Part shown: piece after piece, positions 12,271 to 60,656 of the stretch
Numbering within the stretch: position 1 is the first letter of the stretch
Layout: each line of letters opens with the position of its first letter
Source: a virus
Length of the DNA: 60,656 nucleotides
Virus record (IMG/VR): IMGVR_UViG_3300021197_000990
Span: 1-60,656 of that record
Direction: 5' to 3' (one strand)
Notes under the pieces: model-generated
What the model was told of the DNA's origin: nothing
The model's database searches: none
Seen by the model: only the letters and a program-made list of their open reading frames with translations
Made by a program: the position numbers and the translations under genes

Positions 12271-12476
12271 AAGGCAAAGATAAGCTCGCATTAGACGAAC
12301 TAACAAACTTAATCATGGATAACTATGATGTGTATGACTTAGATAAAGTAGAAGATGACTACATACGAGACACCATAGACATGATGATGAGAAACTGGAA
12401 GAGCATATTGCCGTTCTACAAGATACACCGCATTTATAAAACCATTAAACTAATCAAAGAAGACAAAAGTCTTTAA
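12249..12476 (+). CDS. Hypothetical protein, 75 aa
   Basis: Starts at 12249 (or Met5 at 12261). Helical, with acidic first half and basic second half. Unrecognised. The next gene is clpP. Confidence 0.6.
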
Positions 12477-12486
12477 GGAATCTATT

Positions 12487-13077: not shown

Positions 13078-13084
13078 CAATCGG

Positions 13085-13106
13085 AGTGGAGTAATCCTGC
13101 TCCACT
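13085..13106 (+). promoter_or_regulatory. 7-bp hairpin between clpP and primase-helicase
   Basis: AGTGGAG and CTCCACT pair around an eight-base loop in the 46-base gap. No T tract follows, so it is more likely an RNA-processing or stability element than a terminator. Confidence 0.5.
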
Positions 13107-13123
13107 AACTATTGGATAATACT

Positions 13124-14791: not shown

Positions 14792-14796
14792 TACAA

Positions 14797-16902: not shown

Positions 16903-16914
16903 CAGGAGAACACT

Positions 16915-17172
16915 ATGGAAAACCAAAATTACTTATGGCTACGAGGCCAGAAGAGTTACACTGATAAAGACTTTATTGAAACCTTTAACTTAGATCCTTC
17001 ACTAGAAGGTAAGCCTGAGATCAACGATGCTATGTTAGATGTGACACACAAGATTAACATGCAGCATTATATGGATGCTAATAACATGACTGAAGAAGAT
17101 GCACGAAGTAAAGCAGATGCTATTAGAGATAATACACGTGCTGACATCCACAGTATTCTTGGCAAGAAATAA
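16915..17172 (+). CDS. Hypothetical protein, 85 aa
   Basis: Last gene of the + strand half, with ribosome site CAGGAGAACACT. Polar and helical. It contains FIETFNLDPSLEGKPEINDAM, then a long charged helix. Not recognised; its position next to the RNA polymerase allows a transcription-related role. Confidence 0.7.
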   Translation: MENQNYLWLRGQKSYTDKDFIETFNLDPSLEGKPEINDAMLDVTHKINMQHYMDANNMTEEDARSKADAIRDNTRADIHSILGKK

Positions 17173-23700: not shown

Positions 23701-24596
23701 GCCGCTACTGAAGCCATTGTGATAGCCATGTATGGCAAAGACATTGCTAAGTTGTTTCCTAAGAACTCCATAGCTGTGCCAAATGATTTGACATCTTTAT
23801 AGTCAGTTAGTATTTCTGCGTTCTCCATGATGCGACCACGTATTCTAGCGGCACCATGTTCACCCCAGTCAGCTACATCTTCAAGACCTGTTGAGTCACC
23901 GAACATGTGAGCTATACCATAACCAGCTTCTTGTACACCACGCATTGCAGTATTCCAAGAGTCGGTTAAAGGGCTTAACGCTTTGTTATTTAAATCACGA
24001 TCTGTACTTCTAAATTGTACATTACTACTGAACATATCTTTATTGTATGCATATTCTTCTTCATTAGTAGCTGCACGCTTAAAGTTTAACCGATCATAAC
24101 CTTCAGACATCATAGACTCTAGTAGAGCCTGTCCGCCTGCTTTTAATTCTTCATCACCGTCTTTGACGATCTGATCACCAAACAGTTGAGCTACATTGTA
24201 GGCATCAATCTGGTTTTGTGTAGATGCTGGATGAAGGTCTGATACTCCAGTCTCTATGAGACGAGTAGCAAAGTCCTCACCTTTAGCATTCAATAGTTGA
24301 ACTGTTCCACGACCATGAGCAGCTTCTTGATCTAAGACTTTAACATCTGTAAAGCCTTGTTCTTTAGCTAGCTTCATTAGGTCGATAGAGGCAGCGCCAC
24401 CAGCAGTTCCCTGCTTAAAGTTAACGCTACCATCTTCGTTCTTGCCTAATATTTTAGCGATCTCTGGAGCATCAAATCCGGCGACACGGTATGTCTTACC
24501 TTGCTTATCTCGTAATGTATCTAAATCTACAAACGAGTAGTCACCATTTAATGTTGAGCTATCCATGACGGATAGTAAATCTGGATCGATGTCCAT
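20730..24596 (-). CDS. Large internal/ejection protein with N-terminal staphylococcal-nuclease-like domain
   Basis: 1288 aa. Residues 15-120 match the thermonuclease fold: VDLDTL (Asp26), YRVAGFDAPE (Arg37, Asp42, Glu45, with SNase spacing) and HGRGTVQ (Arg96), so all SNase catalytic positions are filled. Residues about 270-470 are Ala/Gly-rich with hydrophobic stretches that could enter membranes. The rest is helical. Large size and position beside the putative virion RNAP indicate a T7 gp15/gp16-type ejected protein. The nuclease may act on host DNA during entry. The start overlaps neither neighbour by more than one base. Confidence 0.75.
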   Translation of the reverse strand: MDIDPDLLSVMDSSTLNGDYSFVDLDTLRDKQGKTYRVAGFDAPEIAKILGKNEDGSVNFKQGTAGGAASIDLMKLAKEQGFTDVKVLDQEAAHGRGTVQLLNAKGEDFATRLIETGVSDLHPASTQNQIDAYNVAQLFGDQIVKDGDEELKAGGQALLESMMSEGYDRLNFKRAATNEEEYAYNKDMFSSNVQFRSTDRDLNNKALSPLTDSWNTAMRGVQEAGYGIAHMFGDSTGLEDVADWGEHGAARIRGRIMENAEILTDYKDVKSFGTAMEFLGNNLAMSLPYMAITMASVAAAAPTGGASLTVPASIYAGQVYNEQAGDNKSAAAAIASGVVQGALDMVGLKLATKFTGNTPKEFFEQGVAKLMNAEGISKNMAEAKLAGLTRRQVAGLAKDSAKLAASQLTAKKTFNDLALNAIQGGMGEGVTEALQESIAYAGANFDGSGWDWEDLKERAIGAAIAGGSLGAGMSGAATVYDKGQWADVAWRLAPADLKNRSEAEAMFREEASFYGSEEMVPTTLEIAEDARRKADNRGTGFWEDETKTGLKARFEANERNKQGRTLVDQALNAMTKVGKVFKGHLHHTLPIDKQSKYRSIRKLAGMFGAGIQKVYEGAAFENYRHHVATKYINRLPKAEKFYKLFGQGGSEFTNFSDPGSKIYKVISNAMENGKFNPDLVPESTPQKQLILSLVKDLQKVGKEMHTDQTKFNPDLGYIEDYLLKFKGFNKSVISKNKASFIERLTRIDGGNISRDQAVQITEAILGSDMVNTLDEAFDVVERGTVPTAHKKRTLGLSERAEFQDFMEQDIMANAITAAKSAARYQAHEQYVGDNGKVIEELLREAEAEGMPKDQADYIGAQMYNYLQADSGNYHRPTTDEGKKAAEVQKNFIFFTTVTSLSLAALSSLPEAMITMKGLTSEQIFGKDKNSVKSRGQQLAKELHEIIKSEDFDIDEYEAAKLMNNYSYQQADNVGMFDPDISTASKVGVSEIIPAKQNLIKLYFRMTGLTQYTDWTRAVRASFGADFMLNHINTILENEGQPVTNEVQEAKEMLRNIGMTVAPGKLKELQELLAADPETLSPEQTGVLTDMIRDPLYNFINEAIANPQTGNRPLFYQDPRFALFTQFQGFMSTFTANHIPKFWQQYIKRGSPAMKYNAFAVMTGMIMMGFASQYLKDLLKYGESTPYLDNAELIRRGVQSSGLMGTMERITSTIAPIYESRSKNTGEWLYNEISGQSPAISKAGMAVGTGIDLLKGDTEGLGKGTAKLFSIPTQGFNKALDAWDFKGGS

Positions 24597-24605: not shown

Positions 24606-26315
24606 CTATTTGTTTTCTCTTCGGTCAACACCTAGCTTATCTGCTACGAAAACATAGAAACCACTTTCGTGATCGTTAGCCATCGCATCATACTTATCGC
24701 GAACCTCTTGATCAAGCCCAGTCCATTCTTGGATCTTCTTGTTCATAAACAGGTTAGCAATATCAGACACGTTGCCTTCTACTTTATTAAGTTTCATAAC
24801 ATCAGCAACTTTGTTATTGAGCAAAGCCATCTTGCCTGCATCAACCCATTGAGGGTTTTCAGGTGTAGAACCTTTAGCTTCAAATAACTCAGGTGTACCA
24901 GTTCTAGTACGAATAACTAGCTGATTAAGGAACGGACGAATGTCTCTTGGACGTTTGCCTGAGGCCTTAGCATAGTTACGCATATCAGCATAAGCTTGGT
25001 CTAGCAGTACACCAGCTTCATTAGGATCGATGTTATTGGCTGCTGCCCATTGACCTACATGATGTGCTGCGGTTCTAGGATTAAGATCCGTAAATGTACG
25101 TTTATCTTCACCTTCACCGAATGTACCAAACTGTTTCTGCAAAGACTTAAATGTATCTGCAGCTACTGATTGAGCTTTGTATTGACGTTCATTATATTCT
25201 TTAGAACCTTTAACTCGGTAAGGATCTGTCTCATATTGTTCAGGATTAATTGGTTTACCACCAGCAGTGACATATACTTTATTACCAGTTTTATCTTGAG
25301 CAACATAAGCTTTAATTTGCTTACCAGTCTTTTTGTCTTGAACCAACGTTGGGTTAGTTCGATCTATCTTAACTGTACTCTTAGTAATTGGTATTAAGTC
25401 TTTAGCATCACGTGACTGTTTGTAAGCTTCTATGCTGTCTGAAGTGTATTGCTTTTCTTCATGTAGCTTTTGTACTTTCTGCTTATGACCTAACTGTTGT
25501 CCTAAGTAACGCTTACCAGTCCAACGTAAAGAACCACCATGAGAGTAACCAAGAGCTCTACTACCTAAATACATGATTGCTGCTTCAGCTAGATCCTCTT
25601 CATTAAGTAAACCTTGAGCTGCATTACCTAGTGCTGTTAGAACTTTCTGGAACATACTAGGTTTTTCTTGAGCTAGATTCTCACCAGCATCCTTTTGATC
25701 TTCATCATCTACTTGATCAATGGCTGCTTCATCACTTACAGACTTCTCATCGTTTACTGTTTGTGCTAAGACATTTATTGCTTTCTGCTCTGGTTCTTCT
25801 GTCACAGGAACTTCATCAGTCTTAGGAACAACACCATTATATCGATCTCTTGAGTCACTTGTGCTGATCACACCACCAGTTAACTCTGTGATATCATCAG
25901 CTAAGTTCTCTGTAAATTGAGGTTTAAACTTCTCACGACCATCACCTACTTCAACATCTGCAAACTCATCTATATCATTATATAAAGGAACTTGCTGTTG
26001 AGGTCTAGGAACAGAGTTGGAGGTAGGTTGAAACGGCACACGACCATCACCAACATTCTCTTGTGCAAACTCATCTATATCATTATAAGTAGTCTGACTT
26101 ACAGGTTGAGCTTGTTGCTGTGGAACACCAGCGTTACTAGCCATATACTCTAGACCTTGCTGCTGCATCTGACCAACTGGCATCGTCATCAACTCCGGCA
26201 CTTGAGGCTGTGGCACTTGAGCTTGCTGAGGATCTAACATCTTTGGAATGTCAAACTCCTGAGTAATGGTGTTACCATCTTTATCTTTGACAGTCATTTT
26301 CTTTACTTGATTCAT
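24606..26315 (-). CDS. Internal virion protein, 569 aa
   Basis: The N-terminal 200 residues are low-complexity, Gln/Pro and Asp/Glu-rich. They include two copies of a short unit (YNDIDEFA followed by VGDGR) about 35 residues apart. The C-terminal 300 are helical and soluble. No enzyme motif is seen. It lies in the block of five genes (20730-28207) that probably make the ejected inner core. Confidence 0.55.
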   Translation of the reverse strand: MNQVKKMTVKDKDGNTITQEFDIPKMLDPQQAQVPQPQVPELMTMPVGQMQQQGLEYMASNAGVPQQQAQPVSQTTYNDIDEFAQENVGDGRVPFQPTSNSVPRPQQQVPLYNDIDEFADVEVGDGREKFKPQFTENLADDITELTGGVISTSDSRDRYNGVVPKTDEVPVTEEPEQKAINVLAQTVNDEKSVSDEAAIDQVDDEDQKDAGENLAQEKPSMFQKVLTALGNAAQGLLNEEDLAEAAIMYLGSRALGYSHGGSLRWTGKRYLGQQLGHKQKVQKLHEEKQYTSDSIEAYKQSRDAKDLIPITKSTVKIDRTNPTLVQDKKTGKQIKAYVAQDKTGNKVYVTAGGKPINPEQYETDPYRVKGSKEYNERQYKAQSVAADTFKSLQKQFGTFGEGEDKRTFTDLNPRTAAHHVGQWAAANNIDPNEAGVLLDQAYADMRNYAKASGKRPRDIRPFLNQLVIRTRTGTPELFEAKGSTPENPQWVDAGKMALLNNKVADVMKLNKVEGNVSDIANLFMNKKIQEWTGLDQEVRDKYDAMANDHESGFYVFVADKLGVDRRENK

Positions 26316-29779: not shown

Positions 29780-32700
29780 CTACTTAAATATAAATAAACC
29801 AACTTCACTAGCTGAACCATTGTCGGTCACGCTTACTGTTTTTGTTGTTGTTCCTGTAACCGTGTACTCAACACCTGATGCAGAGCTAGAGTTAGCTGCA
29901 CCTGATCCTATAGGTAATATCTCAGTTGCGGCTTCAGGCACTGTAACATTAGTGCTACCAGATCCTGAAGATACATCTAAGTTCCCTGCATATCTTATTA
30001 ACAGTTCATTACCATTTAGTGATACGTCACCATTTGCTTTGATAATCTCAATGCCATACTCTCCAGCTGAACTAGTCGGAGGGTTATTAACTTCTGTGAC
30101 TATCACATCTTTCTGCGCATTCACTGAAGCATAACCATCGTTAACAGTTAAGGTTACTGTATAAGTTCCTGCAACCGTTGGAGTAAATGACCAAGTTGCA
30201 GTTGATGAAGCTGCTCTATTGAAAGAGTTAGTTCCATCTGTAGCAGTATAAGCATAAGTTAACGAGTGACCGTCAGCATCACTAGAACCAGCTCCACTAA
30301 CATTTACCGGATCTCCCTCTTCACCACTTGCTGGGGCAGTTAGTACTGCTACAGGCGCTTGGTTGTCTAAGAGAATAGTAAAGTTCTGTGTAACGCTATC
30401 TGTCCGTCCTAAACTATCAACTACATCAAGAGTCACACTACCAGCTGTATCTACAGTAACATCAGTAAATGTAGCTGTAGTATTCTGAGAGCTTGTAGAG
30501 GACAACGTGATTGGTCCTGTAGATGACCAAGTCCATGAAGTGATAGTAACACCTGCATCTAACGTTGCAGATCCAGTGAGTGCATCTGAGGTACCTTCTA
30601 GCGGCGTTGTAGAACCTACTGAACCGATGGATGCTGTCAAGGTGCTAGGAGCAAGTTGTGTTGCTGTAGCATCCAATGTATCCGTATCTCCGTTACGAGT
30701 AGCTGTAACTCTAAACACTGCGGATCTCTGAGATCCTGCGTTGCCAGTCCATGTGACAACACCTGTAGAAGAGTTTATAGTAGCTGCTGAAGATCCTGAT
30801 ACTTTAGAGTAACTTAAAGTACCTGTACTGGTTATAGAAGGCGAGACAGTTCCTGCTGGAGCGGTCTTATTAGCATAGCTATAGCTAGAGATACTTGCAC
30901 CTCCTTGTTGCAGAGATGTAGCATCTACTGTGATAGTCTGTCCGTTCCTAGAGAATGTACCTCTAACTAACACAGATCTATCTGCTGTACCTTCATTTGC
31001 AGTCCATGTAACAACACCGGTACTTGTATTCACTGTTCCAGCACTAGAGCCAGAGACTTTAGAATAAGAAACAGTTGAGTACACTCCACCTACAGTAGGA
31101 CTAACTGTCCCAGCTGCAGCATTCTTAGTTGTGTAGCTTAATGTTCCTGATACGTTACCTAACTGCGTAGCCGTAGCATCTACTGTATCTGTATCTCCAT
31201 TACGCGTAGCTGTAGCTCTGACTGTGATAGACCTTGAGTTAGTTGAGGTGTTTGTTCCAGACCAAGTAACAGTACCGGTACTAGAGTTAACTCCACCTGC
31301 TGCATCTCCTGAGATCTTAGTGTAGGTCACAGTATCTTGAACTCCGCCAGTGGAGTCAGACTGAGTAGTTATGTTAGGATTAACTGAAGCATAGCTTAAG
31401 GTTATTGTAGCTCCACCTTGTTGCGTACAATTAACATCTACTGTATCTGAGTCATCACTTTGCGTGAAGACACCACGGACGACACAAGATCTCTCAGAAG
31501 TTCCTTCATTAATAGACCATGTGACTTCACCAGTAGAAGTGTTAACTGTTGCAGCTGATGATCCTGAAAGTTTAGAGAAAGTAACTCCACTATACGTTCC
31601 AGTGATAGAAGGACTTATTCCTCCTGCTGCAGCGTTCTTAGTTCCATAACTGAACGACCCATTTGTTCCAGCGAACTGCTTACAAGTAGCATCAAACGTA
31701 TCTGTATCACTATTCCTAGTTACAGTAGCTCTGACAGTTATTGTTCTATCTGAGCCAGTTTCATTTGCGCTTGAGAACGTAACTACACCAGTACTAGAGT
31801 TAACAGATCCTGCTGCATCTCCAGACTGCTTAGCATAGCTTATAGTATCATAGGTACCTGAGACTGTTGGTGATCTTGTAGTAGTTCCTGAGCTCAAGTT
31901 AGAATATGACAAGCTTACACTCGCTCCACCTAACTGAGTACTAGTAGCATCCACAGTATCTGTATCACCGTTTCTAGAAGCTGTAGCTCTAACTACACAT
32001 GATCTATTTGCTGTAGCTTCGTTCGCAGTCCACGTCACAGCACCTGTACTTGTGTTAACAGTAGCAGCGGCATCACCTGATATCTTAGCAAAAGATATAG
32101 AGTCATGTGTTCCGCCAATAGTAGCGTTCACAGTTCCAGAGGCTGCTGACTTGTTTACATAACTTAATGAAACAGTTGCACCACCATTCTGGGTAGCTGT
32201 AGCATCTGCTGTGTTCGTATCTCCATTACGAGTAGCTGTAGCTCTGACTGATATAGATCTAGCCGAAGTGCCTTCGTTAGTTCCAGACCAAGTCACAGTA
32301 CCTGTACTAGAGTTTACTGTACCAGCTGCATCGCCCGATAGTTTAGAATACGAGACAGAAGAATATGTTCCACCTGTAGTATCCACTTGCGTTGTGATGT
32401 TAGCATTAACATTAGAGTAACTTAATGATACTGATGCTCCACCTAACTGAGTACAAGTCGCATCGATAGTATCACTATCACCATTCCGTGTGACGGTAGC
32501 TCTAACTGTGATAGATCTAGATGCAGTACTTTCATTATTAGAAGCCCACGTCACCACTCCAGTTGAGCTGTTAACTGATCCTTGAGAATCACCAGACACT
32601 TTAGAGTAACTTAAAGTAGTGTAGGTTCCACTGATAGTAGGACTTACATCACCTGATCTAGAGTTCTTATCAGCATAGCTCAATGTCGCAGATGCTCCAC

Positions 32701-35700
32701 CTTGCTGAGTTGCCGTAGCATCAGAAGTTGCAGTATCTCCATTACGAGTAGCAGTAGCTCTCACTACACAAGATCTAGAACTAGACGATTCATTATGAGT
32801 CCAAGTAACTATTCCTGTAGAAGTATTGACACTTGCTGCTGAAGATCCTGAGACCTTAGAGTAACTCACAGAAGTGTATGTACCACTCACAATAGGTGAC
32901 TGATCTCCTGATGTAGCGTTCTTAGTCCCATAACTGAGTGAAACGTTAGCTCCGCCTAGTTGAGTCTGAGTTGCATCTACAGTATCTGTATCTCCATTAC
33001 GAGAAACAGTAGCTCTCACAGTTATTGATCTGCTTGAAGTAGAAGGGTTAGCGCTTATCCAAGAGACTACACCTGTGCTTGAATTAACAGAAGCGTTATT
33101 CTGTGTTCCAACCTCAGAGTATGATATTGAGCTATACGTACCTGAGACTGTTGGTGACTGCGTTAACACATTAGCATTGATATTTCCATAACTTAAAGCT
33201 ACACTAGCTCCACCTTGCTGCGTCATAGTTGCATCAGCGGTGTTTGTGTCTCCATTTCTAGTAGCAGTAGCTCTAATGACGCAAGATCTTGAGGCTGTAC
33301 CTTCATTAGCTGTCCAAGTGACTACACCTGTAGAAGTGTTAACTGTTGCAGCTGATGATCCTGAGACCTTAGAGTAACTTACAGCACTGTATGTACCACT
33401 TATACTAGGTGTAGATGTACCTGCTGCTGCATTTCTAGTAGCACCTGTTAGAGATACTGAAGCACCTCCTAATTGTGTACAAGTTGCATCGACAGTATCG
33501 CTATCACCATTTCTAGTACTTACAGATCTTACTGTTATTGATCTTGAGCTAGTGCTCTCATTGTTAGAAGCCCATGTCACCGCTCCTGTAGAAGCATTAA
33601 CTGATCCTTGAGAATCACCGCTAAGCTTACTATATGATATAGAAGTGTATGTTCCACTAACTGTAGGACTTACTGATCCAGATCTAGAGTTTTTATCAAC
33701 ATAAGATAATGTATGACTGGTACCACCTTGTTGTGTACTTGTAGCATCTGCAGTATCTGCATCACCATTGTTGCTTACCGTAGCTCTTACGACACAAGAT
33801 CTGCTACCTGTTCCTTCATTAAGCGTCCAAGTCACTGCACCTGTTGTAGTGTTAACAGTAGCGGCTGACGATCCTGAGACCTTAGAGTAACTAATACTAG
33901 AGTATGTTCCTGCTATTGAAGGGTTCACTGTTCCAGAAGTAGCATTCTTAGTAGCATAACTAAAAGATGTTATAGAAGAACCTGCTAACTGAGTAGCTGT
34001 TGCATCCACAGTATCTACATCTCCATTCCTAGAAGCTGTAGCTCTTACGACGCAAGATCTAGAACTAGCTGCTTCGTTCAGTGGCCATGTAACAGCACCT
34101 GTTGTTGTATTAACAGAAGCGTTAGCATCTCCAGACTGTTTAGCATAACTGATACTAGAGTATGTACCACCCGGACTGGCGTTTTGAGTTCCACCAGATG
34201 CAGCAATGTTACTGTAACTTAATGAAACTGAAGCTCCACCTTGTTGAGTAGCAACGACGTCAGATGTATCTGTATCACCATTTCTAGAAACAGTAGCTCT
34301 AATCGTAGCTGTTCTGCTACCTGTTCCTTCATTAGCTGTCCACGTGATCTGACCTGTGCTAGAGTTAACAGTACAAGCTGTACTTCCTGATACTCTAGCA
34401 TAACTGATACTAGAGTACGTACCTGCAATGGTAACGTTAACACTACCTGCTACAGCATTCTTAGTGCCGTAGCTGAAAGATGTTATAGCAGCACCACCTT
34501 GTTGTGTAGCCACTGCATCTGCAGTATCTGTATCACCATTTCGTGTCACTGTAGCTCTTATTGTAGCTGTGCGAGAACCAGTTCCTTCATTAAGCGTCCA
34601 TGTTATTTGACCCGTACTAGAGTTAACAGTACAAGCTGTACTTCCTGATACTCTAGCATATGACACTGAACCAGTGGTAGTTATTGTAGCGTTGACAGAC
34701 CCTGCTGCTGCATTCTTAGTAGCATAGCTAAATCCAGAGACTGATGCTCCACCAAGTTGAGTAGCTGTTGCATCTACTGTATCAGTGTCTCCGTTACGCG
34801 AGGCTGTAGCTCTAACCGTTATTGATCTATCAGCTGTGCCTTCATTGACTGAACTCCAAGTCACTACACCTGTAGAACTGTTGACAGTACCAGCAGCATC
34901 ACCTGAAAGCTTAGCATAACTCACAGAACTATATGTTCCGGTCGTACTGTCACCTTGAGTAGTAATATTTGAGTTTACATTAGCATAACTTAACCCGATG
35001 GTTGCACCACCTTGTTGAGAGGCAACTGTTGATATAGTTCTTGATACTCCACTTAAGCTTATTGTAGCTCCAACGGTAGAAGTCCTAGATGCAGATCCTT
35101 CATTGTGAAGCCATGTTAACGTTCCACTAGAGTTAATTGTAGTTGCTGAACTGTTTTCAGTCCATGTTCCTATACTTGAGTAGTTACCAGATGCTGATAC
35201 TGCAACACTACCTGATGCAGCGTTCTTAGTAGCATAGCTGATAGTACCTTGTAGTATCGTTGTAGTCGTCGTAGCGCTTCCACTAAACGAACCACCAGAC
35301 CAAGATAAAGTATATCCAATGCTTGTTGATCCATTGTTTGGAGCTGCTACTGAGGTAGCTATACTTTCATTATCTTCTGTAGTAGTTACTGTTCCACTAT
35401 TAATTGTAGCATTAGTGTCGTTACGTTTTACTGTCCAGTTAATATTTGTACCAGTACTTAAGTTAACTACAGAACCAGTGATGCTTACAGTACCACCTGG
35501 CACTACAACTGCAGTGCTGTTTATATTACCTGATACAGGAGTTGTAACTGCAACTGTGTCTACATTAGTCGTTGTAGATCCATTACCACCATTAGCAACT
35601 GGACGTCTTGATTGCAGAGTATAAGTTCCTGCACCTCGGTTTGTTACACTAACATTCGAACCACTACTTGATTGTTCAGTAGAGTTCGGAGTAAACCAGT

Positions 35701-37483
35701 CTCTAGCTACTGAGCCACCATTAACTAACCTATATTGACTCGTACTTGATAAGAGTCTAAACTTGACTAAGAAAGTAGACTCACTACCACTTAGCTCAAT
35801 TAAATTGTTAGTAGTGCTCGATGAGTTAGATACAAAACCAGCTGTTGAACCCGTGTTGTACGCCATTGTTTTTGAACCAACAGATGATATTGCATTACCA
35901 GAGACGTTAGATCTCTTGGTCCACCCATAGTAAGTAACATTACGAGTTAACCCAGTGTAAGAGTTAGACGATTGCCATGCAGCATCTCCTGCAGCTGGTG
36001 TGGCTGAAGAAGTTTTAAGTATGTATGTTGTAGTTCCACCACTACCACCAGATCCTGAGACTGTAGCCGAAGCTGTTGTTCCAGAAGTAAATGATTGTGA
36101 TACTGTAACAGATGTATCTGCACTTGGAGCTGATGGATTAACAGTTATTGTGTACGTATATAAAGTAGTAGTATCTGTTTGCCATAAATAAAATTCAGCA
36201 AACGGATCGTATACAGCAGACTGATCGCGACGTCTAACAGTGAAGCTATAAGTTCCAGTACTGCCTGGATTATAAGAGATAGTGTGAGAGTTACTGTTGA
36301 TTGCATTTGTAACACTTTCAGTTCCTGATGAAGCACTAGAGCTTATATCAAAAATAGTACGCACCGCTCCATTTGAAGCTGTCTGTATATAGTTGTTACC
36401 TTCTGTTCTGACGGTAGAGTATGTTTGAGATTGTGTTATGGTAGATGAAGTTCCACCACCTGAACCACCTGATCCTTCTTGAGATGCAGTACCTACTGTT
36501 AACCATCTAGAGTAACCATTCCTTGTAACTTGTCTATAAACTGTAACAGACCTAGCACTAGATCCTGAGTTGGATGCCCAAGTTATAGTTCCGTTTGACG
36601 TGTTTATTGTTGCTCCATTAGTGCTACTGCCACCGGCAGAAGTTACTGCCCATGTTCCTGCAGTTCCAGTAAATGTTGGACTACCTGATGGAGACTCTGT
36701 GCCTCCACTGGATACTTCTTGAGAGTATGCATAGGCTCCAGAAACGCCTGGTCCACCTAGCTGGGTGACTGTTCTATTAGTGTTAAATGAACCTGAAGCA
36801 TTTGTCGCGGTACAAGTTACAGTTGCAGTTCTTGAACTAGTAGAGGTATTAGCGCTATCCCAAGTAATGGCACCAGAGCTAGAGTTTATACTAAGTAGCG
36901 AACTCGATTCTGAATAGCTATACGTTGGAGCTGGAGAACCATTTGCAACTGGTGATGTTGATAAGCTAGCAGTAGCTCCGCTATTTGCATTACCACTATT
37001 CCACACTGGTTGAGTAGTGAAAGAAGTTGGTGCAGATCCAGAGCTGACTACAGTAAACCATAAATATTTAGTATTTGTAACAAGACTAGCTTTTGGATCT
37101 GTAAAAGTTCTTTGTACTATCTTTATTGGGTAGGTACCAGTATTCGCAGAAGTTACTGTCCAAGTTCCGGATACTGGAAGAGTAGCCCAAGTCTGTCCTG
37201 ATCCATTGTTTGTATCTGTACCAGAAGCTTGCTCACCTGTATTTCCAGGAATGAAGACGTCATTAGGATCTGCGCGGAACTCCACGGAGAACATTGATTG
37301 ACCTTCATAACAATCCATTTCAATTGTATCACCTTGCGTGATTGACAATGGGTTGGTTGGTGGAGCAGTAGAACTATTACTAAATGCACCATTAATCTGA
37401 GCGGCTGTGTAGCTACCTGGAGAGCTAGTGTAAGCTTGTGCACCTGTAGATTGGTTTGCTATGTTGACATTCTTTAAAGCCAT
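29780..37483 (-). CDS. Giant repetitive fibre/adhesin protein, 2567 aa
   Basis: Residues 1-820 are Ser/Thr/Gly-rich beta domains of Ig-like type. Next come about 17 tandem repeats of about 86 residues, each with SYxKxSGxxxxxVNxSTGxVTW, RxxTVRATxxRNGDTDTxDATxTQ and GGA. Then a PKD-like domain (PVAVLTAPASGEEGDP...), then a YGIEI tail-tip module. No cleavage or enzyme motif is seen. It is very probably an extended receptor-binding or surface-adhesion fibre. Cysteines are rare, so stability comes from the folds themselves. Confidence 0.75.
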   Translation of the reverse strand: MALKNVNIANQSTGAQAYTSSPGSYTAAQINGAFSNSSTAPPTNPLSITQGDTIEMDCYEGQSMFSVEFRADPNDVFIPGNTGEQASGTDTNNGSGQTWATLPVSGTWTVTSANTGTYPIKIVQRTFTDPKASLVTNTKYLWFTVVSSGSAPTSFTTQPVWNSGNANSGATASLSTSPVANGSPAPTYSYSESSSLLSINSSSGAITWDSANTSTSSRTATVTCTATNASGSFNTNRTVTQLGGPGVSGAYAYSQEVSSGGTESPSGSPTFTGTAGTWAVTSAGGSSTNGATINTSNGTITWASNSGSSARSVTVYRQVTRNGYSRWLTVGTASQEGSGGSGGGTSSTITQSQTYSTVRTEGNNYIQTASNGAVRTIFDISSSASSGTESVTNAINSNSHTISYNPGSTGTYSFTVRRRDQSAVYDPFAEFYLWQTDTTTLYTYTITVNPSAPSADTSVTVSQSFTSGTTASATVSGSGGSGGTTTYILKTSSATPAAGDAAWQSSNSYTGLTRNVTYYGWTKRSNVSGNAISSVGSKTMAYNTGSTAGFVSNSSSTTNNLIELSGSESTFLVKFRLLSSTSQYRLVNGGSVARDWFTPNSTEQSSSGSNVSVTNRGAGTYTLQSRRPVANGGNGSTTTNVDTVAVTTPVSGNINSTAVVVPGGTVSITGSVVNLSTGTNINWTVKRNDTNATINSGTVTTTEDNESIATSVAAPNNGSTSIGYTLSWSGGSFSGSATTTTTILQGTISYATKNAASGSVAVSASGNYSSIGTWTENSSATTINSSGTLTWLHNEGSASRTSTVGATISLSGVSRTISTVASQQGGATIGLSYANVNSNITTQGDSTTGTYSSVSYAKLSGDAAGTVNSSTGVVTWSSVNEGTADRSITVRATASRNGDTDTVDATATQLGGASVSGFSYATKNAAAGSVNATITTTGSVSYARVSGSTACTVNSSTGQITWTLNEGTGSRTATIRATVTRNGDTDTADAVATQQGGAAITSFSYGTKNAVAGSVNVTIAGTYSSISYARVSGSTACTVNSSTGQITWTANEGTGSRTATIRATVSRNGDTDTSDVVATQQGGASVSLSYSNIAASGGTQNASPGGTYSSISYAKQSGDANASVNTTTGAVTWPLNEAASSRSCVVRATASRNGDVDTVDATATQLAGSSITSFSYATKNATSGTVNPSIAGTYSSISYSKVSGSSAATVNTTTGAVTWTLNEGTGSRSCVVRATVSNNGDADTADATSTQQGGTSHTLSYVDKNSRSGSVSPTVSGTYTSISYSKLSGDSQGSVNASTGAVTWASNNESTSSRSITVRSVSTRNGDSDTVDATCTQLGGASVSLTGATRNAAAGTSTPSISGTYSAVSYSKVSGSSAATVNTSTGVVTWTANEGTASRSCVIRATATRNGDTNTADATMTQQGGASVALSYGNINANVLTQSPTVSGTYSSISYSEVGTQNNASVNSSTGVVSWISANPSTSSRSITVRATVSRNGDTDTVDATQTQLGGANVSLSYGTKNATSGDQSPIVSGTYTSVSYSKVSGSSAASVNTSTGIVTWTHNESSSSRSCVVRATATRNGDTATSDATATQQGGASATLSYADKNSRSGDVSPTISGTYTTLSYSKVSGDSQGSVNSSTGVVTWASNNESTASRSITVRATVTRNGDSDTIDATCTQLGGASVSLSYSNVNANITTQVDTTGGTYSSVSYSKLSGDAAGTVNSSTGTVTWSGTNEGTSARSISVRATATRNGDTNTADATATQNGGATVSLSYVNKSAASGTVNATIGGTHDSISFAKISGDAAATVNTSTGAVTWTANEATANRSCVVRATASRNGDTDTVDATSTQLGGASVSLSYSNLSSGTTTRSPTVSGTYDTISYAKQSGDAAGSVNSSTGVVTFSSANETGSDRTITVRATVTRNSDTDTFDATCKQFAGTNGSFSYGTKNAAAGGISPSITGTYSGVTFSKLSGSSAATVNTSTGEVTWSINEGTSERSCVVRGVFTQSDDSDTVDVNCTQQGGATITLSYASVNPNITTQSDSTGGVQDTVTYTKISGDAAGGVNSSTGTVTWSGTNTSTNSRSITVRATATRNGDTDTVDATATQLGNVSGTLSYTTKNAAAGTVSPTVGGVYSTVSYSKVSGSSAGTVNTSTGVVTWTANEGTADRSVLVRGTFSRNGQTITVDATSLQQGGASISSYSYANKTAPAGTVSPSITSTGTLSYSKVSGSSAATINSSTGVVTWTGNAGSQRSAVFRVTATRNGDTDTLDATATQLAPSTLTASIGSVGSTTPLEGTSDALTGSATLDAGVTITSWTWSSTGPITLSSTSSQNTTATFTDVTVDTAGSVTLDVVDSLGRTDSVTQNFTILLDNQAPVAVLTAPASGEEGDPVNVSGAGSSDADGHSLTYAYTATDGTNSFNRAASSTATWSFTPTVAGTYTVTLTVNDGYASVNAQKDVIVTEVNNPPTSSAGEYGIEIIKANGDVSLNGNELLIRYAGNLDVSSGSGSTNVTVPEAATEILPIGSGAANSSSASGVEYTVTGTTTKTVSVTDNGSASEVGLFIFK
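30640..35020 (-). repeat. About 17 tandem 258-base coding repeats
   Basis: Repeat borders fall at QQGG/QLGG/QLAG junctions. Units are diverged in sequence but keep length near 86 codons. The array is in frame and could change copy number by recombination. Confidence 0.8.
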
Positions 37484-55080: not shown

Positions 55081-56748
55081 TCAAAGCCACTTAGTATCGT
55101 TACTAAAATCTATAGCTCCGGTTCTCTGACGCCATGAGACATTGCTTCTAGATAGCTTATCCCAATGAGTACGTAGTACTTCACAACCCATAGCTAAAGC
55201 CATAACTGTGTCATCATAACATCCTGGTGCTGCTTCAGTCTTACCTGTTGCAGTAGACACATAATCCTTCAATTCTTGAATCATTACGTTAGATGGTATG
55301 TTGATCTCTTCATTCTCTATTAGGTTCTTTAGATTACCTATGATTGCAGGCTTAGATGCTGAGGTTGTCCTAAAACCTAAGCGTAGCCCTTCATCGTTAG
55401 AGACATTAGCTATTTTAGTCTGCTTATATAAGTTGATATAGTTCATAGACTCTAGCTTCTGCAGCGTAGCAATACCCATACTGTTACTCTCTACACATAA
55501 TAAAGCATTATTGTAATAACGCCCTAGGTAGAATAGGAACTCTCCATACAGACTAGGATCAATCCTATTGTCTCTATATAAAGCTACTACTCTGTGTTGA
55601 GCATCTAATACTACAGCTGCTGAACTATCTTGTCCTACACCTAATGCTACATCGGCTGCGATTACATAGTTACTATCAAAGTCTGGGAAGTCCCATATCT
55701 GTAGTTTACCCTCGCGGCTTTCATCAAACATCTTGCTGTGCGGATCCCACGTCATGTTACGCTGGGCTGCTGCAGGAAGTAGCGCGTCCAGTTTCTCTGT
55801 GTTGAATACGTTACTACCACTTACAATGAACGCTTCATCTGGCGTTGCTGGATACTCTTGTTTGAATTTGAGTTCTCCACCTTCTGCAATTTTGAGTCTT
55901 CTCCAATATAATTGGTCAAGGGATAGATCATACTTCTCTTGAAGCTTCTCCTCCTCTAAAGAGAGCTCCATCCCCTCCGGTGCCTCTCTCTGATACTCCT
56001 GAGTCCAGAACCATGGTAGGAAGATAGGAATATACTCGTTCTCTCCAGCCATAGCACCTTTCCATAGACGGTAGAATTCACCCTGAGCACCATTAGCGGT
56101 AGACTCTAGAATAACCTCGGTACCTGCAGCCTGTGAGATACCTTGGAACATACCAGCAAGTATCTTCTCATCGTGTGTCCAGAAGGCAACCTCAGACAAG
56201 TGAGCTATCGTTGGTGTTGTACCACGTCCCGCTTCCGGTGAACCGGCTGTGTATAGTCTATAAGATCCTATAGCCTCCTTATCTCTATACCATGGGCTAT
56301 TTATCTTTATCTCTTTAGCATTAGACGTTATCTCTTTAGGTTTAAGATCTCCATCCATATTCTTAATTAAGTTCTTACTCATACCGAACAGTGCATCAGA
56401 GGTAGCACTATCGTGAGCCATAACTACAGATCTAGAGTGGGGTGAGAAGTAAGACTTCCAGAATACCCTACCTGCACAGTACGTACTTATGCCTTGTTGT
56501 CGGGCTTTAAGGATTATAGCTCTAACCTTACCTGTCTCTTCAACCTGCTTAGCTAGCTTGTCAGTAATATACTTCTGCGCTTCATTTAGATGGAAGGGTA
56601 CAAAGCCCTTACTAGCATCTTTAGTTACAATTTGTATCTGCTCCTCAGCGAACTTAGCGAAGTCCGTTGAGTAGTCTTTAAGTTTATCACGCTTATCCTT
56701 CTCCTTGAGGAGCCGAATAGCCTGAGCCTTAGTAATCTTATTAGTCAT
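55081..56748 (-). CDS. Terminase large subunit (packaging ATPase-nuclease)
   Basis: 555 aa. Walker A-like KARQQGIST at 81-89, Walker B IAHLSEVAFW at 181-190 with catalytic Glu186, then an RNase-H-like nuclease with YVIAADVALGVGQDS and later CVESNSMG and CYDDTVMAL. It translocates DNA into the prohead and cuts concatemers. The gene is first of the late half, 140 bases after a TGTAACCCTTATGG site. Confidence 0.92.
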   Translation of the reverse strand: MTNKITKAQAIRLLKEKDKRDKLKDYSTDFAKFAEEQIQIVTKDASKGFVPFHLNEAQKYITDKLAKQVEETGKVRAIILKARQQGISTYCAGRVFWKSYFSPHSRSVVMAHDSATSDALFGMSKNLIKNMDGDLKPKEITSNAKEIKINSPWYRDKEAIGSYRLYTAGSPEAGRGTTPTIAHLSEVAFWTHDEKILAGMFQGISQAAGTEVILESTANGAQGEFYRLWKGAMAGENEYIPIFLPWFWTQEYQREAPEGMELSLEEEKLQEKYDLSLDQLYWRRLKIAEGGELKFKQEYPATPDEAFIVSGSNVFNTEKLDALLPAAAQRNMTWDPHSKMFDESREGKLQIWDFPDFDSNYVIAADVALGVGQDSSAAVVLDAQHRVVALYRDNRIDPSLYGEFLFYLGRYYNNALLCVESNSMGIATLQKLESMNYINLYKQTKIANVSNDEGLRLGFRTTSASKPAIIGNLKNLIENEEINIPSNVMIQELKDYVSTATGKTEAAPGCYDDTVMALAMGCEVLRTHWDKLSRSNVSWRQRTGAIDFSNDTKWL

Positions 56749-56884
56749 TATGAGTCCTCATTCTGTATAGACAAATAATACTTAATGGTGAAGGGGGTAA
56801 AAGCCCTTTGGTATACCTATATTATTTTTATATGTCTGCTATTTGCTAATATAATTCAGGTGGCCCCAGGGTTCCTTAGAGTTC

Positions 56885-56898
56885 ACCATAAGGGTTAC
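56885..56898 (-). promoter_or_regulatory. Candidate phage RNAP promoter for TerL
   Basis: TGTAACCCTTATGG on the - strand, followed by TGAAC. About 140 bases upstream of the TerL start. Confidence 0.65.
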
Positions 56899-57376
56899 AT
56901 CAGGGATTATGCTATGTGGAGTAGACTATCAGTGACTGTGAGATGCTGTGGGGAGACTATTAGGAGACTATGAGATCTTAAGGGTGAAGGGGGTAGCTTA
57001 TGTTAGTCTAAGCTCAGGGCAGCTATGTCTCAGTCAACCTATAAAGTAGGTAATAATATATAGTACCCTTAATAATCCCACGGGCCCCCTCAACTCTCCC
57101 CTCACTCCCTCCCCTAATCCTCTCCCTCCCAGTGATTTACTCCGGGATACTACCAGTCACCGTGGGTATTATAAGGTCTTAGGGTTGATCTGAGGGATCC
57201 TGAGGGTGTATCGTGAGTAGGGTATAGGAGCTTAGAGTGCTTTAGCGGTGATCTTGCGGTGGGATTAGGACTTGGAGGTGGCTGTGAGTGGGCCGTGGGG
57301 CAATGGCTTATATCAGATCCTAAAGTTCCCTACAGTTTCTTGTAGTCTACCTACATTGTCTACTATTTAACCTTCT

Positions 57377-57391
57377 TGTAACCCTTATGGG
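57377..57391 (+). promoter_or_regulatory. Candidate phage RNAP promoter facing the early half
   Basis: TGTAACCCTTATGGG on the + strand, the only copy in this orientation. It lies 0.7 kb before the first + strand gene and divergent to the TerL copy. Confidence 0.6.
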
Positions 57392-57427
57392 TCCTGGGGT
57401 TTCTATAAGTCCTATCTACTATAAGTA

Positions 57428-57465
57428 TACTCTATGATCTTATATACTTACTCTACGATCATATA
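57428..57465 (+). repeat. Two direct repeats TACTCTAYGATCWTATA
   Basis: 17-base copies at 57428-57444 and 57449-57465, 21 bases apart (two helical turns), with two mismatches. Placed beside the iteron cluster, they could be binding sites of a replication or regulatory protein. Confidence 0.55.
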
Positions 57466-57468
57466 GTC

Positions 57469-57528
57469 ACCTGTGTGTATCACCTGTGAGTTACCCGTGA
57501 GTACCTGTGAGTGTGTGGTACTGTGAGT
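57469..57528 (+). repeat. Five iteron-like ACCTGTGAG copies
   Basis: Copies start at 57469, 57482, 57493, 57503 and 57520; the variants are ACCTGTGTG, ACCTGTGAG, ACCCGTGAG, ACCTGTGAG and TACTGTGAG. Spacing is 10-17 bases. Iteron clusters are typical of replication origins. Confidence 0.55.
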
Positions 57529-57654
57529 ATAGACTATAAATATAGACATAAGATAGATGCTAACAGGCTAGAATAAAGGGGAGATGTAGGGATTAATTTG
57601 TCAGCAGTTGTTTATGTATCTTAATGGTGAGGAGTGTCTATTATGTCTACGTAT

Positions 57655-57844
57655 ATTGTGTTGCTTCGCAACCCAACCTGACGTTTGGTATCTCAGAGCA
57701 TTGTGTTGCTTCGCAACCCAACCTGACGTTTACTGTAGTCTGCTGCTGTTAGCAATAGCTTACGAGCATTGTGTTGCTTCGCAACCCAACCTGACGTTTG
57801 GTGTCTTAAAGTATTGTGTTGCTTCGCAACCCAACCTGACGTTT
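57655..57844 (+). repeat. Four 32-base hairpin repeats in two 113-base tandem units
   Basis: Identical 32-base copies at 57655, 57700, 57768 and 57813 contain GTTGC-TTC-GCAAC (5-bp stem, 3-base loop) followed by CCAACCTGACGTTT. The spacers alternate at 13 and 36 bases and the two long spacers resemble each other, so a 113-base unit was duplicated. The stem-loop geometry equals that of N4 virion-RNAP promoters; on the opposite strand the loop is GAA. Not CRISPR: no cas genes, spacers repeat and are too short. Confidence 0.8.
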
Positions 57845-57890
57845 ACTGAAGCCTGCAGCTGCTCCTCATGATACTAGACGATATGGTGTC

Positions 57891-57902
57891 CACGTGAACG
57901 TG
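57891..57902 (+). promoter_or_regulatory. CACG-TGAA-CGTG stem-loop
   Basis: Flanked by GTGTC and TCCAC. Member of the covarying stem-loop family (532, 6730, 57891, 59615). Confidence 0.6.
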
Positions 57903-57959
57903 TCCACTCTCATGGTATCTTGTATATCACGTAATGGTTAGGCCAGCCGATTGGTCCGA

Positions 57960-58040
57960 GGTACAGAAGTCTTTGTATCAGGTTCAAGCACGAATACGTC
58001 TGATCAGCGAAGTGATCCAGGTTACAAAAGTCCATGTAAC
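57960..58040 (+). promoter_or_regulatory. Pair of related stem-loops in the early leader
   Basis: GGTACA/TGTATC (57960-57979) and GTTACA/TGTAAC (58021-58040) enclose similar loops (GAAGTCT and AAAGTCCA). Stem bases differ but pair, so the structure appears selected. They lie 50-130 bases before the first early gene. Confidence 0.5.
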
Positions 58041-58088
58041 TTCATACGGCAATTCAACATCTAACTTAATAACCAAGAGGATTTTATT

Positions 58089-58184
58089 ATGTCTCCAGAA
58101 TGGATCGTATTAATCACATTAGTTTCAGTAGTATTAACAGCATCATGTCTTGGTGTTTTCTTAGCTAAAGTTATGGAGTGCTAA
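58089..58184 (+). CDS. Tiny membrane protein, 31 aa
   Basis: First early gene. ATG follows ACCAAGAGGATTTTATT. Residues 5-27 are a single hydrophobic span (WIVLITLVSVVLTASCLGVFLA). Coupled by three bases to the next gene. Early membrane peptides of this kind can affect host envelope functions, but no function is known here. Confidence 0.6.
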   Translation: MSPEWIVLITLVSVVLTASCLGVFLAKVMEC

Positions 58185-58186
58185 TC

Positions 58187-58426
58187 ATGATGTATAAACT
58201 AACTAAAACTCATCAGCAAGGTCTAGTTGACGAATCAATAGTTTTGTTCAACATTTTAGATGAGCAGACTAACGATCCTAAGATGCAGGATAAAGTCGTA
58301 CTTATCTATATGTCTTACTATTCAGATGGTGAGACTACACAGTTTAGACAAGCAATGTCTAAGCAAGATGCTAGAAATGTTTATAGTAACTTACGTAAAG
58401 AAGGTTACTTTGCAGAAGATGCATAA
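58187..58426 (+). CDS. Hypothetical protein, 79 aa
   Basis: ATG 58187 is preferred over an upstream GTG, with GGAG eight bases before. Charged helix plus a Tyr/Ser-rich middle. It is followed by a terminator at 58435. No family recognised. Confidence 0.65.
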   Translation: MMYKLTKTHQQGLVDESIVLFNILDEQTNDPKMQDKVVLIYMSYYSDGETTQFRQAMSKQDARNVYSNLRKEGYFAEDA

Positions 58427-58434
58427 CTCCCATT

Positions 58435-58467
58435 ACCTCTGTTCCTTCGGGTTCAGAGGTCTTTTTT
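58435..58467 (+). terminator. Terminator after the first early genes
   Basis: ACCTCTG and CAGAGGT pair around CCTTCGG, followed by CTTTTTT. A strong rho-independent signal just after the 58187 gene; the next gene has its own leader. Confidence 0.85.
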
Positions 58468-58492
58468 ATTTGACTACCAAGAGGATTTAGTC

Positions 58493-58810
58493 ATGTCAGA
58501 ATTTAAATATTATCGTGCAATGTCACGTAACGAGTATTCAGAATTATGTGTTGCTGATCAGTATGCAACCAACTTAAACACTAACACTTACTGGACTAAC
58601 AGCTATCATGCTGCTATGCAGTATTGTAGTGAAGGCCGTATCATTGTCGAGATTGTTCTTGATCGTGATATTCCAAGTCCATATCATGGCATCGCACACG
58701 GTGTTGATGAATATGGTGTTATGAACAATCATCATGAAGTTGTAATGACTCGTGGTTTGTTCAATGACCAACTAGTAAACGTACTAGAAATGCAAGAGTA
58801 CGAATACTAA
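58493..58810 (+). CDS. Hypothetical protein, weak ADP-ribosyltransferase-like pattern, 105 aa
   Basis: ACCAAGAGGATTTAGTC ribosome site. The chain YRAMSRNEYSEL, then NTYWTNSYHAAMQYCSEGRIIVEIVL and HHEVVMTRGL, follows the order of small ART-fold proteins (an Arg strand, a T/S-x-S region, a Glu before RG). Key residues are not certain. Several phages inject or express ARTs early, so the placement fits. Treat as a weak hypothesis. Confidence 0.4.
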   Translation: MSEFKYYRAMSRNEYSELCVADQYATNLNTNTYWTNSYHAAMQYCSEGRIIVEIVLDRDIPSPYHGIAHGVDEYGVMNNHHEVVMTRGLFNDQLVNVLEMQEYEY

Positions 58811-58876
58811 TAACGCTGTGTAGCTAATAGCTAGCGAGCAGTAACATTATATAAATCAACAACTTAGGTGATTATC

Positions 58877-59596
58877 ATGGAAATTTTATTAATGCTTTTA
58901 ATTGCTATCATTATGGTAGCATCTGTAGGTGCTGTGTCACGCAGCTTAAATAGTGACCTTGTTAAAGGTTACGTCAACATGGCTATCTTTATCGGTGGTC
59001 TAGTTCTAGCAACTTCAATGCTGCTTGCATTCGAAGCTACAGCTCAAGAACTGCAAGACGATGAAGCTGTCGAGTATGTCATGCTATCTGGCGACGTAGA
59101 TAAAGCTATGCTGCTTAAACTAAAGAATGCAATAGCTAAGTATCCAAACCTTAAAACTATTGCTCTAGACTCACCAGGCGGTTACGTTCATATAGGTTTT
59201 GAGATCGGTCACATTATTCGTGAAAACAATCTTAACACTTATATCTATGGTAACGGCTCATGTGCGTCTGCTTGTACTTATATCTTTATGGGTGGCAAGT
59301 ATAGAGGTATGCAATTCGGTGGTAAATTAGGTTTCCATCCTGCTCGTGCTGGTGGTTTTCCTGGTTCTATACCACTAAATGACATCTTGCTTGACGGTCA
59401 ACGTCTAAGTCTTGATGCTGCAGAGTACTTCTTAACTATGGTTAATGCAGACCACAGACTTAAGATTATTCAGTTCTTATCAAAGAGCTATCAGAATACT
59501 CATTATAGTCAAATGGATTGGTATGTACCACGTAAGGATAACTTGTCTCATACGAGCTTGTTCCATGCAGGTGTTGTTACACACTTCTTCCTATAG
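58877..59596 (+). CDS. Exported ClpP-fold (COG3904-like) serine protease-type protein, 239 aa
   Basis: Start ATG 58877, because the GTG further upstream lacks a ribosome site and AGGTG lies seven bases before. Two hydrophobic segments (about residues 3-17 and 34-53), then a signal-peptidase-like A-T-A site. The mature part has LDSPGGYVHIGFEIG, then GNGSCASACTYIFMGGKYRG and LGFHPAR: the Ser-Ala-Cys nucleophile loop and the Gly-Phe-His active-site region of periplasmic ClpP-fold proteins. It may act on the host envelope or remain membrane-anchored. Confidence 0.7.
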   Translation: MEILLMLLIAIIMVASVGAVSRSLNSDLVKGYVNMAIFIGGLVLATSMLLAFEATAQELQDDEAVEYVMLSGDVDKAMLLKLKNAIAKYPNLKTIALDSPGGYVHIGFEIGHIIRENNLNTYIYGNGSCASACTYIFMGGKYRGMQFGGKLGFHPARAGGFPGSIPLNDILLDGQRLSLDAAEYFLTMVNADHRLKIIQFLSKSYQNTHYSQMDWYVPRKDNLSHTSLFHAGVVTHFFL

Positions 59597-59681: not shown

Positions 59682-60212
59682 ATGACTATGATCACTGAAC
59701 CACGCACTGTATTCGTTAAAGATGTAACTTTAAACTATGCAAAACTAGTTAAACCAGTTAATCCTTTCGGTACAGAACAATATGAGTTGCAAATTGCGAC
59801 TACAGATTCTGCTACAGCTCAAACTATGCGTGACTTAGGTCTTAACGTTAAAGAGAAAGATGGCTCATTTACAGCTTCTCTTAAGCGTAAAGCACGCAAA
59901 GCCAATGGTGATGACAATGGTCGTCCTGTTGTAATAGATGCAGGTCTTAAGCCAATCGATGATAACCAGCTTATGAAATTAGGTAATGGTTCTGTCGGTA
60001 ACGTTAAGTTATACCAATATCCTTACGATGCTGCTGGTCGTAAAGGTACTGCAACTTCATTAACAGCTGTGCAAGTTGTTGATTTTGTTGAGTATGTTGG
60101 TGGTGGCGTTGAGGCTGGCTTCTCGGTTGTAGGTGATAGCTTACCTGCAGCATCTGAGCAAGACACTGTAGACGAGCAAGCTGAACCAGATATGGCAAGC
60201 ATGCCTTTCTAA
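59682..60212 (+). CDS. Single-stranded DNA-binding protein
   Basis: 176 aa. The region TVFVKDVTLNYAKLVKPVNPFGTEQYELQIATTD, then a beta-barrel core, then an acidic Gln/Asp/Glu tail ending M-P-F, is the pattern of T7 gp2.5-type phage SSBs, whose terminal Phe contacts replication proteins. It coats ssDNA for the polymerase and primase-helicase. Ribosome site ACCAAGAGGAAATCTATT. Its last 122 bases are repeated at the window start. Confidence 0.85.
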   Translation: MTMITEPRTVFVKDVTLNYAKLVKPVNPFGTEQYELQIATTDSATAQTMRDLGLNVKEKDGSFTASLKRKARKANGDDNGRPVVIDAGLKPIDDNQLMKLGNGSVGNVKLYQYPYDAAGRKGTATSLTAVQVVDFVEYVGGGVEAGFSVVGDSLPAASEQDTVDEQAEPDMASMPF

Positions 60213-60222
60213 TATAGAATAA

Positions 60223-60259
60223 ACCAGATGGTCCTTACGGATCGTCTGGTATTTTTTTT
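60223..60259 (+). terminator. SSB terminator (right repeat copy)
   Basis: Same stem as at 133-171, with an 8-T tract instead of 10. Confidence 0.85.
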
Positions 60260-60272
60260 GGGATGATGTTTC

Positions 60273-60437
60273 ATGGATATACTTACAGATTTAAGAGTAA
60301 TTCTCTTTATAATATTTGCAGTAATCGTATCTGCAGCTTTTTATCCTATAGAAACATGTGCAGTATTGGCAGTCTTTATACTTCAGCAACAGTTCTCCTT
60401 TTGGAGATCGTTTCTTCGGTCCACTCGTGGATCTTAG
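60273..60437 (+). CDS. Small membrane protein, 54 aa (right repeat copy)
   Basis: Encodes exactly the same protein as 185-349; the two nucleotide differences are silent. In a circular or permuted molecule this would be one gene between SSB and the 566 gene. Confidence 0.6.
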   Translation: MDILTDLRVILFIIFAVIVSAAFYPIETCAVLAVFILQQQFSFWRSFLRSTRGS

Positions 60438-60656
60438 ATTAATTTTTGCTGCGCGCCGAGATCGATCTTACAGATCGACACGTCACGACCAGATGTTCCC
60501 TCTGGAACTCCCTTAGGAGCAGAGGAGCGTTAGGAGCACAGGAGCGTTAGGAGCACAGGAGCGTTAGGAGCCAGGGAGCGGGAGCAGGAGCCTGGGGTGT
60601 GCCGGACAGGCGTCCATGAAATAATGTCCAGCTGAAGCTGTCCAACCATATAGGAT

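Follow-up and report, generated by a model that had tools for sequence, protein, structure and literature searches.

Tandem DNA hairpins resembling the N4 early promoters, and a small N4-type RNA polymerase, in a phage genome from IMG/VR

Genome organization

The window, by which we mean the whole stretch of DNA that was analysed, is a viral record of 60,656 bases with ends that are near-copies of each other (1–559 versus 60091–60656, 97% and not identical), and the map therefore closes on itself or nearly so, with the block of genes on the + strand continuing from 60656 to about 560–17172. The ends, a variant terminal overlap, contain short GGAGC-type repeats. Genes on the + strand run from 58089 through the end of the record and on to 17172, those on the - strand from 56748 (terminase) down to 17377, and the divergent control region between the two blocks is 56749–58088. 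The features of importance here are:

57655–57844, + strand, array of four hairpins in identical 32-base copies
57655–57686, + strand, copy 1 of the 32-base element, hairpin 57660–57672, predicted start G 57680
57700–57731, + strand, copy 2, hairpin 57705–57717, predicted start G 57725
57768–57799, + strand, copy 3, hairpin 57773–57785, predicted start G 57793
57813–57844, + strand, copy 4, hairpin 57818–57830, predicted start G 57838
57648–57748, + strand, first half of a tandem duplication with a spacing of 113
57761–57861, + strand, second half, 90% identical to the first half
58089–58426, + strand, first small ORFs after the array (31 residues at 58089, then an ORF ending at 58426)
59682–60212, + strand, 176-residue ssDNA-binding protein (SSB) of the Enc34 type (PF10991), among the first + genes
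14797–16902, + strand, 701-residue T7-like RNA polymerase, the second RNA polymerase, with a putative middle/late role
17377–20730, - strand, 1117-residue protein without cysteine, predicted to be a minimal virion RNA polymerase of the N4 type; the late block ends with its gene
20730–24596, - strand, 1288-residue virion structural protein without cysteine (phrog_6958)
24606–26315, - strand, 569-residue protein without cysteine

At the level of ORFs there is one T7-like RNA polymerase, of 701 residues, and not the two-subunit RNAPII of the Schitoviridae, and it probably serves the middle and late genes. The portal belongs to the same PHROG as that of N4 (1216), but the major head protein differs (1328 versus 1357). 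The 1288- and 569-residue proteins are probable co-ejected proteins. A late protein of 2567 residues (29780–37483) with tandem repeats of about 86 residues (258-nt spacing, 30657–35242) and a PKD domain is likely an adhesin or tail protein. The + block also contains a ClpP-like protease gene at 12487–13077 (PF00574, E 1e-72), and a second, weak ClpP/NfeD-like match is located at 58868–59596.

The hairpin array

A preliminary description of this DNA had noted a nested array of four hairpins in a duplicated 113-base unit just upstream of the first early genes, each with a 5-bp stem and, on the - strand, a GAA loop with a purine at its centre, and all of this is borne out. The four copies of the 32-mer, ATTGTGTTGCTTCGCAACCCAACCTGACGTTT, are identical, each contains the hairpin GTTGC-TTC-GCAAC with a 5-bp stem and a 3-base loop, and the array ends 245 bases before the first + ORF. 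The - strand serves as template for the early genes, and on it the hairpin is 5'-GTTGCGAAGCAAC-3' with a C-GAA-G loop. The unit can be folded into a longer structure of 3 bp (TTG/CAA), a 1x1 mismatch and then the 5-bp stem with its 3-base loop, and the 14 conserved bases of the 32-base element are located on one side of the hairpin only. In the whole record GTTGC-TTC-GCAAC occurs four times forward, only in the array, and it is found neither in reverse nor with the reversed-pattern control.

Four C-TNC-G hairpins with a stem of at least 5 bp are present in 56749–58088, and they are not due to chance: in 20,000 first-order Markov simulations of the region the mean number was 0.011, and no simulated sequence had more than 2. 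Elsewhere in the window the class is represented by 14947 and 42441 on the + strand and by 46767 and 55180 on the - strand, all within genes. A reading of the array as a terminator was rejected, as no terminator-like site was found in 56700–58600. A search of IMG/VR with the 24-base core gave no exact copy. To the left of the array there is about 0.9 kb of non-coding sequence (56749–57650) where GTGAGT-like words are abundant and CTTAATGGTGAAGGGGGTA-like repeats are located at 56781, 56977 and 57620; this is a possible late promoter or origin region.

The 1117-residue protein

The virion RNA polymerases (vRNAPs) of N4 and its relatives have about 3500 residues, and the role of their huge flanking domains is unsettled. 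Unlike N4 gp50, the 1117-residue protein of the window is only as long as the N4 polymerase domain and leaves no space for N- and C-terminal domains. Searched by itself it shows no match to Pfam or PHROG, no relative at a meaningful E-value among the PDB sequences, no phage record by tblastn and no match as a single sequence to viral contigs, and homologs were recovered only with an alignment as query. The starting alignment was made from relatives at syntenic positions in nine contigs, and the search led to 54 viral-contig loci, of which 14 were not used; 40 homologous ORFs of 833 (partial) to 1385 residues were extracted from the others, and 28 of these together with the protein of the window constitute alignment A7, with 29 rows.

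Of the 29 members of A7, 17 have a match to the RNA polymerase family phrog_414 (3e-7 at best) and one to the virion RNA polymerase family phrog_2206; these are the two PHROGs that the polymerase domain of N4 itself matches, at 5e-6 and E 0 respectively. With hhalign the family is aligned to 11 Schitoviridae vRNAP domains at 95.1% (E 3.4e-8, 411 columns), a match that came only with the 11-row alignment, the N4 sequence alone giving nothing against the family profile. The value is 1.2% against eight T7-like RNA polymerases of the same phage group, where the T7-side alignment is shallower, and 59.6% between the Schitoviridae vRNAPs and those eight.

The equivalents of N4 R424, K437, R440, D559, K670, Y678 and D951 (residues as given in the accessible text of PMC2784036 and PMC4496689) are invariant in all 29 rows, with R453, D632, K718, Y726 and D930 of the 1117-residue protein corresponding to the catalytic residues R424, D559, K670, Y678 and D951. 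The N4-like spacing is kept in NPxxxKxxR, in motif A (DGxTNG) and in motif B (K-x7-YG), and an aromatic residue precedes the motif C aspartate in 28 of 29, with one His; the residue that opens motif B varies, being Arg in 23 rows, Lys in five and Ser in one. An AlphaFold2 model of the protein (pLDDT 80.4, pTM 0.79) has the N4 vRNAP (2po4, E 7.6e-16) as its top match in a Foldseek search of the PDB. The VIA-align Z score is higher for T7 RNA polymerase (30.2, 652 residues aligned) than for the N4 vRNAP (24.8, 756 aligned), and in the structure alignments the protein is only about 12% identical to the N4 polymerase.

The protein contains no cysteine, as is the case for 38 of the 40 homologous ORFs, the other two having one each. 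Cysteine is also absent from the 1288- and 569-residue proteins encoded upstream, and the portal, terminase, DNA polymerase and T7-like RNA polymerase have 4 to 14. The N4-like vRNAPs likewise lack cysteine, according to the accessible parts of PMC3715699 and PMC2784036, and like the gene for gp50 and its Schitoviridae counterparts the gene closes the late block, next to two genes for cysteine-free proteins. By profile comparison, signature residues, fold and absence of cysteine the 1117-residue protein thus proves to be a single-subunit RNA polymerase of the N4 type, as had been proposed.

Comparison with the N4 early promoters

DNA hairpins are known to serve as promoters for an injected polymerase in N4 and its relatives. 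Their activity with the N4 vRNAP requires gyrase and SSB, and transcription starts 4 bases beyond the stem with a template C at +1. When positions 1–12000 of N4 were scanned for the same hairpin class (C-TNC-G, stem of 5 bp or longer), three sites were obtained on the + strand, which is the correct one, namely GTTGC-TTC-GCAAC, AAGAAGC-TCC-GCTTCTT and AAGCTGC-TCC-GCAGCTT, with none on the - strand and nothing else. The first is promoter P1, the template strand of which is printed in the part of PMC12633501 that was available, and from their number and place we read the other two as P2 and P3. The hairpin of the array is identical to P1 at 13 of 13 bases. The contact rule for the N4 vRNAP, as stated in the accessible text of PMC4496689 (-8G, a -9C/-13G closing pair, -10G, -12A and a purine at -11), is satisfied by the template GTTGC-GAA-GCAAC in all four copies.

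The array thus resembles P1–P3 in having a 5-bp stem, within the range of 5–7 bp, a 3-base loop on the template strand, a GC-GNA-GC core with a purine at the loop centre, and a location before early genes. It differs from them in being four tandem copies versus single dispersed ones, in its longer conserved right flank and outer 3-bp stem after a mismatch, and probably in a start 3 bases further out. The N4 promoter geometry that had been suggested therefore stands for the stem, the loop and the contact bases, but the exact start spacing of N4 fits poorly, the template base at that spacing being a G (C at +1).

Hairpins in the control regions of related phages

Eighty control regions were collected from terminase relatives and 9 by genome search, which with the window and Roseobacter phage CRP-7 (MK613349) gives 91. 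In 71 cases the region is 1 kb or longer. C-TNC-G hairpins occur in 19 of these and a TGTTT-CAT-AAACA hairpin, in most of them more than once, in 10; the remaining 42 contain neither kind. The C-TNC-G class is thus absent from 52 of the 71, including the nearest isolate, CRP-7. It is present in 6 of the 20 regions shorter than 1 kb. In the first 3 kb of the regions of at least 300 bases (192 kb with redundant loci, CRP-7 left out) there are 32 C-TNC-G hairpins versus 0 C-GNA-G, and in addition 14 G-GNA-C and 1 G-TNC-C. In nine loci, eight relatives and N4, that were scanned over their whole available length, sites oriented toward the early genes lie within the control region or the early region, and L040 has one stray site in the opposite direction.

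Six loci (L040, L052, L066, L067, L076 and L171) share the consensus GAGC-CACAC-TNC-GTGTG-TCTCTTT, designated type T2, which in L040 is found in one copy before the first early genes and one before an ssDNA-binding-protein-like gene. The middle base of the T2 loop varies (TTC, TGC, TAC) with T-N-C kept in most copies. Three first copies carry a TTT loop, which breaks GNA on the template. An outer GAG/CTC stem with a C-T mismatch corresponds to the TTG/CAA stem with a T-C mismatch of the window and, as compared in a fixed-register table, the T2 element is in its sequence the same architecture with changed bases. In type T3, RTCCC-TTC-GGGAY, the outer pair changes on both sides. The T3 genomes contain both RTCCC and ACAAG hairpins, and our first reading of RTCCC-ttc-GGGAY as the vRNAP promoter of T3 is made uncertain by the location of the ACAAG hairpins at the positions that the elements occupy in other types. 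In the polymerase tree (L111 left out) T2 constitutes one clade and T3 one clade, but T4 does not.

In L013–L015 the T2 flanks (GAGC and TCTCTTT) surround CATGC-AA-GCATG and CACGC-AA-GCGTG, and paired hairpins in which a loop of 4–6 bases contains CAAG are common among the relatives; 49 have the early-sense orientation and none the reverse. They are located in the control regions of L045, L048, L031, L013, L036 and others, with Watson-Crick stems that differ between copies. These loops show that the GNA rule is not group-wide; it holds for the window, the T3 RTCCC hairpins and most T2 copies. Seven distinct stems defined by their flanks and eight distinct stems with a CCAAG[AC] loop are wholly Watson-Crick, without a G-T pair, which suggests, without being decisive, that selection has acted on the DNA and not on an RNA. 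The stems were sought by flanks or loop alone and matches with 0–4 pairs were taken as chance, so that the result is partly by choice.

L008, L013–L018 and L164 contain TCTAG-GNA-CTAGA within a CCC/GGG outer stem, a promoter-like architecture with the loop on the other strand. At about 2800–3390 of L081 there are about 600 non-coding bases between an ssDNA-binding-protein-like gene and a second TTC hairpin, and this stretch could hold an RNA gene.

Predicted start sites and proposed mode of early transcription

The nearest base in the array that would fit an N4-type start, a template C, is found 7 bases beyond the 5-bp stem; at this position the window and the two tabulated T3 copies have G, and T2 has G, A or T. 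From the sequence we predict starts at G 57680, 57725, 57793 and 57838.

The array probably represents four tandem early promoters for a virion-carried RNA polymerase of the N4 type, and we put the probability of this at about 0.8. The identity to P1 and the family of the polymerase give independent support to the two halves of the earlier suggestion, that of N4-type promoters and that of the 1117-residue protein as their polymerase. The strand bias of the hairpins in relatives and the distribution of T2 and T3 over the polymerase tree also speak for this reading; against it count the relatives with other hairpins or none found, the TTT loops, the start spacing, the higher Z score of T7 RNA polymerase and the negative result with the single N4 sequence. 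The sequence itself shows the hairpins with their position and orientation, and the family to which the polymerase belongs; packaging, ejection, binding, start site and a need for supercoiling we infer. The late genes would make the polymerase, which would enter the virion together with the 1288- and 569-residue proteins, likewise without cysteine, and be ejected with the DNA. Negative supercoiling and SSB would expose the hairpin with its C-GAA-G loop on the - strand, the polymerase would bind to stem and loop, and rightward RNA would begin about 7 bases beyond the 5-bp stem. The early + genes, including that for the SSB, would in this way be transcribed ahead of the T7-like polymerase of 701 residues. 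Infection by this phage thus probably begins in the manner of N4, with much smaller components.

Alternative explanations

The hairpin might instead act as RNA, in the 5' leader of an early mRNA that host RNA polymerase starts elsewhere, where it would affect stability, mediate antitermination or be bound by a regulator. In relatives, the paired hairpins that are kept before the early genes differ in their loops (TNC, CAAG, ACAAG and CCAAGA), which is easier to understand for a structural RNA, and the strand bias is equally compatible with RNA. We nevertheless regard this as unlikely: the wholly Watson-Crick stems described above, partly a matter of choice, speak against it, as do the second copies in L040, which are located closely behind the preceding stop codon. 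In addition, no sigma-70-like site was found on the + strand between 57600 and 58100, an Rfam search of the window gave no match, and the identity to P1 would be left unexplained.

It is very improbable that the copies are protein-binding repeats, operators or iterons of a replication origin, that are palindromic by coincidence. Four tandem copies in a divergent control region, beside 0.9 kb of unusual non-coding sequence, would suit such repeats, but the 14 conserved bases flank the hairpin on a single side, relatives show the same fixed orientation and have elements before separate early gene blocks, and the loop keeps T-N-C. Least probable of all are promoters of the 701-residue T7-like polymerase. 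It is encoded in the same + block, but its own synthesis has to precede any action, the rest of the genome contains no further copies, the hairpin is identical to that of a vRNAP promoter, and T7-type promoters are not hairpins according to the accessible text of PMC4496689.

A probable minimal variant of the N4 system, and related phages

The best reading of the array and the 1117-residue protein, judged from sequence, is a variant of the N4 system with hairpin promoters and a stand-alone minimal vRNAP. That it is a variant appears well supported, with the same hairpin and the same polymerase family at about one third of the size, in another phage group, with tandem copies and with hairpins that diverge among relatives. 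There is about an even chance that this extends to a widespread group outside the Schitoviridae, in which stand-alone virion RNA polymerases of 1.1–1.4 thousand residues and early DNA-hairpin promoters co-diversify, from a GNA triloop to CAAG-type loops, constituting natural orthogonal polymerase-hairpin pairs, and in which the giant domains of N4 would be dispensable for hairpin-started infection. With a minimal version in another phage group it would be possible to tell what hairpin transcription needs from what ejection needs, and in vitro work would gain a set of small enzymes, each with its matching hairpin. Since the hairpin is identical to P1 despite a polymerase only about 12% identical, a cross-test with the N4 mini-vRNAP is immediate.

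Among titles and the beginnings of abstracts on CRP-7-type phages and vRNAPs, with subscription papers little covered, none reports hairpin promoters or a minimal vRNAP in the group. For the Stenotrophomonas phage StenR_269, as for the phage of the window, a vRNAP has been proposed outside the Schitoviridae, partly from lack of cysteine; it differs in that the function was not reliably determined there, and the word "hairpin" is absent from the accessible text (PMC10747016). The part of the CRP-7 paper that was available terms these phages non-N4-like and names only one RNA polymerase, the T7-like ORF30 (PMC6918029), and a minimal vRNAP would account for early transcription in such phages.

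CRP-7 resembles the window in gene order (portal 55% and T7-like RNA polymerase 34% identical) and in having three cysteine-free proteins at the same place, but its gp33 is not detectably of the same family as the 1117-residue protein and the C-TNC-G hairpin was not found. On visual inspection the motifs of gp33 seemed suggestive, but neither BLAST nor hhalign gave a match, and homology to the polymerase is not claimed. In L005, 17859–29367 (gp33–gp35 of CRP-7) encodes three large cysteine-free proteins at the vRNAP position, and gp33 may be a further diverged virion RNA polymerase.
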